Below are positions 8,914-40,119 of a stretch of 40,119 nucleotides of DNA, piece after piece. Numbering within the stretch: position 1 is the first letter of the stretch; each line of letters starts with the position of its first letter. This DNA is from a virus. Position numbers and translations under genes: made by a program. The notes under the pieces are model-generated. The model searched no databases. It was not told the DNA's origin and was given only the letters and a program-made list of their open reading frames with translations. The stretch lies in IMG/VR virus record IMGVR_UViG_3300010396_000032, positions 1 through 40,119 of that record; one strand, written 5' to 3'.

Positions 8914-10065
8914 ATGGGATTTCTCAGCGGAAAGGTTTCAATCCTGAGGTTCCGAGTCGAGGGCGGTTCGCCGCGGGCGTTCACGGAGGAACATCTCGAT
9001 CAATTGAGATCGTTCGCGGCCGGGATGCCACGCGTGAGAGGCAAGCATTTGCAGCACGTGAAGGACCTGGGCTGGACCGCCGGCGAGGACGTACTCGATA
9101 CGCGCTTCAAACAGCAAAAGAACATTGCGAGCGACATGATGCTTTTTGCGTTTCGTCACGACACGAACAAACTGCCGACCGATTTGCTTCGGGCGTACGA
9201 GTCCCAGGAGCTTGCCAACCTCACCGAGAAAAAGGGCGACGAGGGGCTCCGTAAGCGTGCCAAGGAGACGGCCCGCGAGAGAATGGAAAAGCAAGCGGCC
9301 GACGGCAGGTTCATCAAGTACAAGACGATTCCCGTCTATTGGGACCGGCTCTCGAACGAGGTCCTGTTCGCGGCTTCTTCGCCGCTTCATGCTTTCGAGT
9401 TTTGTCAGTTGTTTCACGAGACGTTCGGGGCGCCGCTCGATGTGATCGCCTCGGGGACGCATGCGTTCCACCTGGCCGAGGTTCACGGGCTGACCCGCCA
9501 GGCGGACGATAGCGTGCTTTCGAAGTTTGTGCCGGACTCGCCGGCCGAGGTGGCCTGGATCGATCGGACCGACGAACATGTCCGCGACTTCCTCGGCAAT
9601 GAGTTTCTCCTCTGGCTCTGGTATCGCACTAGATCGGGCAGCATCACGCTCTCGGACAAGTCGGAGGCCTGGGTCCTTTTGGCCAGATCAATGCTGTTGG
9701 AATGCGCCCGCGGCATGCACGGCCACGTCGTGATCGCTCACGAGCAACCGGCCACGAGGGGCGAATCCCTGGTCGCTGCGAGAACGGGGAAGCTGCCGCG
9801 GCAAGCAGGCCTGACGATCAATCGGAATTCCGAGCAGTTTGATTTCGCGCTCACCGCCGAGACGCTGGCGATCGGCGGATTGCGGCTGCCGCTCAAGTTC
9901 ACCGATGAGCCACTAAGCGACGCCCAGATTCTTGAAGAACGAATCGCCAAGCTAAGGCGGTTCCTGGAAAGCTTTGATCTGCTATTCGACGCGTTCATTC
10001 GCGTTCGATTCGGACGGCAGTGGGAGAAAGAACTCGCTGGGATGCAGAAATGGCTACAGGCGTGA
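8914..10065 (+). CDS. rdgC-like: RdgC-like recombination-associated protein
   Basis: 383 residues from the ATG at 8914 (AAAGGAACGAG upstream). The order GFLSGKVSILRFRV, LGWTAGEDVLDTRF, LFAFRHDTNKLPTDLLRAY, FIKYKTIPVYWDRLSNEVLFAASS, FLGNEFLLWLWY and a C-terminal IAKLRRFLESFDLLFDAF...EKELAGMQKWL matches a planctomycete-type RdgC-like family I recognise. RdgC proteins are ring-shaped DNA-binding dimers that modulate RecA-mediated recombination, and phages often carry them. A truncated second copy of its C-terminus is at 11463-11600. The TGA at 10063-10065 is followed by GACGCGTCG repeats. Confidence 0.65.
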   Translation: MGFLSGKVSILRFRVEGGSPRAFTEEHLDQLRSFAAGMPRVRGKHLQHVKDLGWTAGEDVLDTRFKQQKNIASDMMLFAFRHDTNKLPTDLLRAYESQELANLTEKKGDEGLRKRAKETARERMEKQAADGRFIKYKTIPVYWDRLSNEVLFAASSPLHAFEFCQLFHETFGAPLDVIASGTHAFHLAEVHGLTRQADDSVLSKFVPDSPAEVAWIDRTDEHVRDFLGNEFLLWLWYRTRSGSITLSDKSEAWVLLARSMLLECARGMHGHVVIAHEQPATRGESLVAARTGKLPRQAGLTINRNSEQFDFALTAETLAIGGLRLPLKFTDEPLSDAQILEERIAKLRRFLESFDLLFDAFIRVRFGRQWEKELAGMQKWLQA

Positions 10066-10667: not shown

Positions 10668-10671
10668 CGAC

Positions 10672-10692
10672 CGCTTGCATGGCGAGCAAGCG
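10672..10692 (+). repeat. Start-associated hairpin 1 (CGCTTGC/GCAAGCG)
   Basis: CGCTTGC (10672-10678) and GCAAGCG (10686-10692) form a 7-bp stem between the end of the decayed methyltransferase and the Shine-Dalgarno (AAAGGAAA) of the gene at 10713. It is the first of five related hairpins, each preceded by GACC or a variant. Confidence 0.75.
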
Positions 10693-10712
10693 CATTTGAA
10701 AGGAAACGACAG

Positions 10713-10934: not shown

Positions 10935-11101
10935 TCTTCGACGTTTACCTTCGGCCCACTGGCGGCGGCCGGCGGCGATGGATCGCTCACATCGCTGCGG
11001 CCAACATTGAGGAAGCTGCAGCGAAGGCTCGCGAGCAATACGGAGTCAAAGGATACGTCGCCGTCGTGGATAAGTCTGGGGACGAAAAGACATTCAGTTA
11101 G
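10931..11101 (+). CDS. Small hypothetical protein (56 aa)
   Basis: ATG at 10931 within the ATGA overlap, stop TAG at 11099-11101. It reads MIFDVYLRPTGGGRRRW, IAHIAAANIEEAAAKAREQYG and YVAVVDKSGDEKTFS. The beta-alpha-beta character resembles small phage proteins that begin with a beta strand and a helix rich in 'EEAAAKARE'. The next hairpin repeat starts directly after its stop codon. Coupling and codon pattern support it as a real gene; function unknown. Confidence 0.65.
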   Translation: MIFDVYLRPTGGGRRRWIAHIAAANIEEAAAKAREQYGVKGYVAVVDKSGDEKTFS

Positions 11102-11103
11102 AC

Positions 11104-11124
11104 CGCTTGCTGGTCTGGCAAGCG
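11104..11124 (+). repeat. Start-associated hairpin 2
   Basis: CGCTTGC (11104-11110) and GCAAGCG (11118-11124) with a 7-nt loop, directly after a stop codon and 19 nt before the ATG at 11144. Confidence 0.8.
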
Positions 11125-11143
11125 ATCGATCGATGGAGGCGCA

Positions 11144-11434: not shown

Positions 11435-11462
11435 GAGTTCGTAGTTGCGTTCGAATTCGAGG

Positions 11463-11600
11463 GTGCGCGAGGATCGCACGGCGAAGCTCCGTGATTTCAT
11501 CGAGTCGCTCGACTTGCTTTACGATGCGTTCGGAAGGATTCGCTTCGGCAAAGAGTGGGAGAAGGAACTCAGGGAGATGCAGAAATGGCTGAAGAGCTAA
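11463..11600 (+). pseudogene. C-terminal fragment of a second RdgC-like gene
   Basis: 45 codons read VREDRTAKLRDFIESLDLLY, then DAFGRIRFGKEWEKELREMQ, then KWLKS stop. This aligns with the last 45 residues of the RdgC-like protein at 8914-10065 (ILEERIAKLRRFLESFDLLF...RQWEKELAGMQKWLQA) at roughly two thirds identity. A TAG stop lies in frame 19 bp upstream, so only the tail of the gene remains. The divergence from the intact copy indicates an old duplication or a remnant of another phage acquired by recombination, not a recent tandem repeat. Confidence 0.8.
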
Positions 11601-12032
11601 GGCCGGCCGACGAAGCATCATCCGCCGATCGGCGATCAGGCCGAGCGATACGCCACGATCAGGGAAACAATCCTGATTGCGGCGAAGGAATGCGTCGATC
11701 TGACGCCGGTCTCCCCTGAGCAAACCAGGGCCGTGAACTCGCTCGATGAAGCGATGATGCTGTTCAACGCGGCTGTCGCCCGCAACGAGCCTTCGAATCA
11801 GTCCTTCGAGATCATGATTAACGGCAAACCGTATCGGACCGAGAGGGCGATGCTCACGTACAAGGACGTTGTTGAACTGGCATTTCCAGGCCATGGTCCG
11901 ATTCACGTTTTTGACGTCAGCTTCTCGGGAGGTATTGGAACCAATAAGGAAGGCATCCTGGATCCCCGATCCGGATACGTCTTCATCCACAATGGAACCA
12001 AGTTCAGCGCGTACGACACCTCGAACGCGTAG
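11601..12032 (+). CDS. Acb2/Tad1-type helical hairpin joined to a ubiquitin-like (Multiubiquitin-type) domain; start unresolved
   Basis: The frame is open from 11601. Residues encoded from about 11640 read AERYATIRETILIAAKECVDL then PVSPEQTRAVNSLDEAMMLF then NAAVARNEP, the pattern of the Acb2/Tad1 hairpin family (typically '(S)RE-x-SLA-x-TKLEEA-(M/L)-WANA-x-IARN'). Members of that family include sponges for cyclic nucleotide immune signals. Then FEIMINGKPYRTERAMLTYK, DVVELAFPG...FDVSFSGGIGTNKEG and IHNGTKFSAYDTSNA match the Multiubiquitin beta-grasp pattern. No ATG/GTG/TTG precedes the hairpin in frame; the first is GTG 11733. An ATG at 11585 in the frame one base away reads MAEELRPADEAS, so a one-base shift near 11620 (mutation, assembly error or programmed) is suspected. 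Domain calls are by eye. Confidence 0.6.
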   Translation, partial: GRPTKHHPPIGDQAERYATIRETILIAAKECVDLTPVSPEQTRAVNSLDEAMMLFNAAVARNEPSNQSFEIMINGKPYRTERAMLTYKDVVELAFPGHGPIHVFDVSFSGGIGTNKEGILDPRSGYVFIHNGTKFSAYDTSNA

Positions 12033-12034
12033 AC

Positions 12035-12055
12035 CTCTTGCACGATCAGCAAGCG
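12035..12055 (+). repeat. Start-associated hairpin 3
   Basis: CTCTTGC (12035-12041) and GCAAGCG (12049-12055), one mismatch from the others, directly after the stop of the Acb2/Tad1-ubiquitin-like gene and 13 nt before the ATG at 12069. Confidence 0.75.
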
Positions 12056-12068
12056 AAGGAGTCGATCC

Positions 12069-12257
12069 ATGAATCCGATGGTGCCTTACCTCACGGGCTG
12101 GTTGGCCGGGAACGTGACGGGCAAAGCCGCGGAAGTGATGAAGATCGTCGAAATGGAACCTCAGCCTCCGGATGCCTTTCTCGTGAAGCTCGAATCCGGA
12201 TTAATGCTGAGGGTAAAGGTCTCTGAAGTTCCGAAACTTCGAGGCGGTAAGGAATGA
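12069..12257 (+). CDS. Small hypothetical protein
   Basis: 62 residues; AAGGAG lies about 7 nt before the ATG. Residues 4-22 are mildly hydrophobic (MVPYLTGWLAGNVTGKAAEV), then a small beta-rich part (DAFLVKLESGLMLRVKVSEVPKL). Flanked on both sides by the repeated hairpin. Function unknown. Confidence 0.7.
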   Translation: MNPMVPYLTGWLAGNVTGKAAEVMKIVEMEPQPPDAFLVKLESGLMLRVKVSEVPKLRGGKE

Positions 12258-12258
12258 C

Positions 12259-12279
12259 CGCTTGCTCAAGCAGCAAGCG
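12259..12279 (+). repeat. Start-associated hairpin 4
   Basis: CGCTTGC (12259-12265) and GCAAGCG (12273-12279) with a 7-nt loop, starting right after the TGA at 12255-12257 and ending 12 nt before the ATG at 12292. Confidence 0.8.
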
Positions 12280-12291
12280 AACGGAGGGACC

Positions 12292-39882: not shown

Positions 39883-40089
39883 ATGATCTGCGAGTATTGC
39901 AAGACCCGCCCTCTGTGCCGATCAAATCGTTTCCCGGCCAAGACGTGCGGAACTGCGGAATGCCGACATGCACGAATGCTGGAGAAGGGAAGACTCACCT
40001 CGAAGAAGTGGTACGAACGAAACAAGCAAAGCCGAAAACTCGCTCGATTGAATCGGCTGCCGGCCGAAGCGCCCAATCCCGGACTTTAG
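39883..40089 (+). CDS. Small zinc-finger protein crossing the circle join
   Basis: 68 residues from ATG 39883 (GAGG 4-7 nt upstream), 8 nt after the previous stop. MICEYCKTRPLCRSN...KTCGTAECRHARML has C-x-x-C and C-x-x-x-x-C-x-H, a likely zinc finger of the kind found in small phage HNH-associated or recombination proteins. A basic tail (KWYERNKQSRKLARLNRL) follows. The gene continues identically at bases 1-93. Confidence 0.7.
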   Translation: MICEYCKTRPLCRSNRFPAKTCGTAECRHARMLEKGRLTSKKWYERNKQSRKLARLNRLPAEAPNPGL

Positions 40090-40119
40090 TGAGCGCTTGG
40101 TTCGGGACCAAGAGGTCGC
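39997..40119. repeat. Terminal overlap of a circular genome (right copy)
   Basis: Identical to 1-123; see the left copy. It ends inside the T-arm of the tRNA-Pro-like segment, which is completed only in the left copy (96-147). Confidence 0.93.

Follow-up and report, generated by a model that had tools for sequence, protein, structure and literature searches.

Bacterial multi-ubiquitin proteins are part of Bub-like operons, and several multi-ubiquitin structures have been solved, two of which (9d59 and 9d5b) refer in their PDB titles to multi-ubiquitin filaments. Anti-phage protection by the Bub/multi-ubiquitin operons has not been demonstrated (PMC13373217). The sponges of the Acb2/Tad1 group are likewise already known: Acb2 and Tad1 are hexamers that capture cyclic nucleotides and thereby stop CBASS and Thoeris (PMC12043709). 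Judging from the sequence, two protein pieces normally found apart, an Acb2/Tad1-type hairpin and a ubiquitin-like (Ubl) domain, are joined in one phage gene of the locus described here. This arrangement, proposed in an earlier note on the same DNA, finds support in the sequence itself, in profile searches and in fold comparison, and in its architecture it is almost certainly a genuine phage-encoded fusion.

The window, that is, the whole 40,119-nucleotide stretch that was analysed, is the virus record IMGVR_UViG_3300010396_000032; it carries 123 identical bases at each end (1-123 = 39997-40119) and is probably a closed 40-kb genome. Bases ~85-145 resemble the 3' half of a tRNA gene and might be a phage attachment site. 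Profile matches identify phage genes for a terminase, a portal protein, a head protease/capsid fusion, a tape measure protein and a tyrosine integrase, and a SieB-type superinfection exclusion protein is encoded on the minus strand (2205-2726, 41.6 bits). No closely related phage emerged from scans with either the RdgC-like or the portal protein. The protein encoded at 1067-1672 has no Pfam match; its style is presumably that of planctomycetes, which is a guess at the host only.

The fusion frame sits in a block of small phage genes. It is open on the plus strand from 11601 to 12029, followed by a TAG stop codon (12030-12032), and encodes 143 residues (hereafter P0001) with no internal stop. 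A single frame carries both halves: the N-terminal hairpin (residues 5-63, 11613-11789, supported by PF24729, phrog_1454, the best relative and the predicted helices), a four-residue linker, PSNQ (11790-11801), and a single C-terminal beta-grasp domain of the multi-ubiquitin family (residues 69-143, 11805-12029, supported by tblastn, profiles and fold search) that ends in TSNA. By codon statistics, the hairpin frame is the preferred one from ~11609 on and the other frames are disfavoured, apart from a weak stretch at ~11861-11905.

An HMM search identifies the Acb2_Tad1_hairpin profile (PF24729) in residues 5-61 with an E-value of 1.1e-6 and 29.2 bits, above the curated cut-off of 27 bits and over the whole length of the profile (1-58 of 58); phrog_1454 also matches the hairpin (E 2.5e-9). 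AlphaFold2 predicts helices at residues 18-34 and 39-62 (pLDDT 95-98); the resemblance to the Acb2/Tad1 hairpin group, which the earlier note had read off the sequence, holds for the profile and for the two-helix hairpin fold alike. BFVD matches named Acb2/Tad1 hairpin reach a probability of 1.00, but with E-values above 0.1. A scan of IMG/VR yields 80 hairpin loci, and almost every relative is a stand-alone protein some 70 residues long; the best of them, a stand-alone phage protein from IMGVR_UViG_3300044825_003095, shows 62% identity over 58 residues. Across 55 aligned sequences, the invariant residues R21, E40, M53, N56 and A60 are retained in P0001, as are the motifs HxP and DQ..RY..R and the second helix, whereas position 4, which is F or Y in 54 of 54 relatives, is T. 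Started from a profile of the hairpin relatives, a search of the PDB identifies Acb2 homolog 43 (9ptq) with an E-value of 1e-5 and Tad1 chains at about 1.5e-4.

For the second half, the Pfam profile Multi_ubiq (PF14452) gives an E-value of 0.0018 and 18.9 bits, below the curated cut-off of 24.5 bits; thus, the Pfam search suggested as a check falls short, and this half is treated as homologous to the family rather than as a Pfam member. The resemblance to the Multiubiquitin family itself is corroborated by tblastn, by a profile of host domains and by the fold. A tblastn search with the whole protein against plasmids retrieves 17 records, most of them with a gene annotated as "multiubiquitin domain-containing protein" that has a ThiF E1 as its neighbour; the regions inspected have the order multiubiquitin – DUF6791-ThiF – DUF6527, often preceded by a UvrD helicase. 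The Ubl domain is 29-35% identical to the host multi-ubiquitin domains. A profile of six host domains, with P0001 left out, scores P0001 at 54.5 bits, while 20,000 shuffled versions of the domain reach 11.0 bits at most, a somewhat favourable comparison in that the six were picked among P0001's own matches; a second Ubl profile, with P0001 included, finds 9cd2 at an E-value of 7e-14.

A single-sequence model of the Ubl domain alone (pLDDT 70.5, pTM 0.59) adopts a beta-grasp fold, and the structure prediction that had been proposed as a check returns multi-ubiquitin structures as the top fold matches. Foldseek gives 9cd2 as the best PDB match (E 2e-3, probability 1.00), and VIA places 9cd2_B first (Z 7.7, rmsd 2.8, 71 aligned) and ranks five multi-ubiquitin entries at the top (Z 7.7 to 6.0), with ubiquitin variants and ISG15 lower. 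A VIA Z below 8 is weak alone; together with the sequence evidence, the Ubl assignment is convincing. The model of the full two-domain protein yields no significant PDB match in Foldseek and unspecific rows in VIA. The domain retains the core motifs of the multi-ubiquitin family and its own C-terminus, and host proteins with a single Ubl also exist (L006, L007 and L011). A distinction between phage Ubls ending in Ala and host Ubls ending in Ser was considered and dropped, given that the host protein L131 likewise ends in Ala.

A stem-loop element, GACCGCTTGC-N7-GCAAGCG, overlaps the stop codon of the fusion on the plus strand (12032-12057), before the next start. On both strands of the window there are 9 matches to it, with 0.47 expected; further copies (10669-10694, 11101-11126 and 12256-12281) are found at the ends of three other small phage genes, where each overlaps or closely follows the stop codon and precedes the ribosome site of the next gene. 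That the stop codon abuts this phage-specific repeat places the 3' half within the phage's own gene layout, which argues against a chimera. A chance resemblance, or a misassembly joining two unrelated pieces, would be compatible with the Multi_ubiq score below the Pfam cut-off and with the lack of a second copy in the searches described below; it is nevertheless strongly disfavoured and highly improbable in the face of the separation from shuffled sequences, the fold match to 9cd2, the codon usage that runs continuously across the fusion like that of the other genes of the phage, and the flanking repeat.

The survey of relatives that the earlier note had suggested gave no other copy of the fusion among the 80 hairpin loci in IMG/VR (0 of 80), and tblastn detects none among 50,697 phage and 72,556 plasmid records. 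Scans of IMG/VR aimed at the Ubl domain or at the fusion found no relative with either, and a scan for fusion patterns, which were narrow, gave 31 chance matches only. A scan of genome contigs with P0001 identifies ribosomal protein S9 only (L003), and 301 genomes of the phylum of that contig contain no match to P0001, although the host probably belongs to a different phylum. The fusion can safely be called rare but not unique, the searched scope being one without planctomycete genomes.

Hairpins with other, unrelated appendages are encoded by Streptomyces phage KimJongPhill (gp38) and Curtobacterium phage AddiRose (gp60). At phage locus L087 (4953-5573), the hairpin has a C-terminal extension, Big-like in look; at L075 (4614-5177), it has an N-terminal HAD-like part; and across these and the phage loci L149 (535-1053) and L147 (568-972) the domains joined to the hairpin are mostly unnamed. 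These cases make a modular use of the hairpin plausible and weaken any inference drawn from fusion alone.

The likely original start is the ATG at 11585-11587 on the plus strand, preceded at a distance of eight bases by AGGGAG (11571-11576), which resembles a ribosome-binding site. This ATG overlaps the end of an upstream mini-ORF (11445-11600) and opens MAEELRPADEAS (the MAEEL frame), one base off the hairpin frame. Initiation there would place some ten residues ahead of the HHPP motif, in line with 9-13 in many relatives. The first ATG, GTG or TTG of the hairpin frame itself is the GTG at 11733, none being present for 44 codons. The difficulty with the start codon pointed out earlier is real. 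Of the one-base frame change placed near 11620, the change stands and the position does not: starts, reading frames and codon statistics confine it to 11588-11615. Assembly error, real mutation and programmed frameshifting are all possible explanations and, because the likely start is one base out of frame, the fusion gene may have decayed, may contain a frameshift or may be wrongly assembled here. The MAEEL frame was considered as a separate gene and rejected, its codon statistics being negative and the frame never favoured. The mini-ORF has 51 codons, starts with TTG on the plus strand and repeats the C-terminal end of the RdgC-like protein encoded at 8914-10065; on sequence evidence, it derives from a partial duplication of that gene, and its TAA stop (11598-11600) just precedes the hairpin frame. 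This partial copy directly upstream indicates that the region has been rearranged and, like the 44 codons devoid of a start, is compatible with a gene in decay, whose frame change would be genuine and whose fusion would be a recent, functionless remnant. We consider this unlikely, since the 143-codon frame is open, has phage-like codon usage and retains the residues invariant in the family.

With regard to function, the likeliest of the readings considered, although at less than even odds, is that P0001 would be a bifunctional counter-defence protein, an oligomeric nucleotide sponge displaying ubiquitin-like decoys. The intact gene would make the counter-defence protein, the hairpin of which would form an oligomer like that of Acb2; this oligomer would capture cyclic nucleotide signals and at the same time present several Ubl domains, which would compete with host multi-ubiquitin for the E1 (DUF6791-ThiF), or for the filament or the DUF6527 partner, and the competition would block the Bub-like pathway. 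Such a double action is favoured by the membership of the hairpin in its family, the reach of its profile to 9ptq and Tad1 and the retained invariant residues; by the homology of the Ubl domain, with 9cd2 as the best fold, the phage repeat at the stop codon and the continuous codon usage; and by the existence of another phage protein with a Multi_ubiq end, in LR756511. It is weakened by the failure to find a second copy of the fusion, the out-of-frame start, the T at position 4 and the lack of demonstrated phage protection by Bub operons (PMC13373217). That one phage protein actually blocks two immune layers, with the hairpin oligomer soaking up cyclic nucleotide alarms and the Ubl ring poisoning ubiquitin-like conjugation, is doubtful.

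The main rival, nearly as likely as the reading of P0001 as a sponge with decoys, is that the hairpin works alone and the Ubl domain is a passive appendage that merely stabilises, solubilises or spaces the oligomer. The unrelated appendages on the hairpins of KimJongPhill gp38, AddiRose gp60, L087 and L075, and the stand-alone state of nearly all relatives, are compatible with this possibility; the Ubl domain retains, however, the core motifs of the family and its own C-terminus, as a mere spacer need not. Conversely, the hairpin could be an oligomerisation platform only, binding no nucleotide, with a multivalent Ubl decoy as the working part. The occurrence of hairpins fused to several different domains and the replacement of the otherwise constant aromatic residue at position 4 would fit such a role, but it appears quite improbable given that the HxP and DQ..RY..R motifs and the second helix are retained.

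If P0001 is indeed a sponge with decoys, it would be the first case of a phage decoy directed against multi-ubiquitin systems and would speak indirectly for an anti-phage action of such systems. A decoy-like Ubl joined to the hairpin of a sponge would offer a direct route to the question of whether Bub operons have an anti-phage role, and a testable reagent; the fusion also adds to the view of the hairpin as a reusable module.

Bub-like operons encode a ThiF E1 and DUF6527 or JAB next to the multi-ubiquitin gene. None of these was found with P0001: ThiF, Prok-JAB and DUF6527 have no match anywhere in the record, in agreement with the earlier statement that the window contains no E1 or JAB gene. 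The huge phage LR756511 (595 kb) also encodes a protein ending in a Multi_ubiq domain (L008, 3782-4228; 24.6 bits against the cut-off of 24.5), with the C-terminus TGDA; this protein has an N-terminal cysteine-containing stretch where P0001 has the hairpin, and LR756511 has ThiF and JAB matches as well. At 280703-282427 of LR756511.1, away from the Multi_ubiq-ended gene, a ThiF match and a Prok-JAB match are no more than 1.5 kb apart; this phage possibly carries a ubiquitin-like system of its own. With the Acb2/Tad1 hairpin family, P0001 shares the full-length profile match and the invariant residues, and it differs in the C-terminal Ubl domain, found in none of the 80 IMG/VR relatives, and in the replaced aromatic at position 4. 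In Tad1 (7uav, 8kbb-8kbh), the hairpin is joined to a beta-rich part, as in P0001, but the order is reversed: the antiparallel beta-sheet of Tad1 precedes the helices, whereas the beta-grasp domain of P0001 follows them. With the multi-ubiquitin proteins of bacteria (PF14452; 9cd2, 9d59, 9d5b and 8u38), P0001 shares the fold, 9cd2 being the best match, and the C-terminal T-x-x-[SA] ending; in place of tandem Ubl repeats it has one Ubl, fused to a hairpin and borne by a phage.
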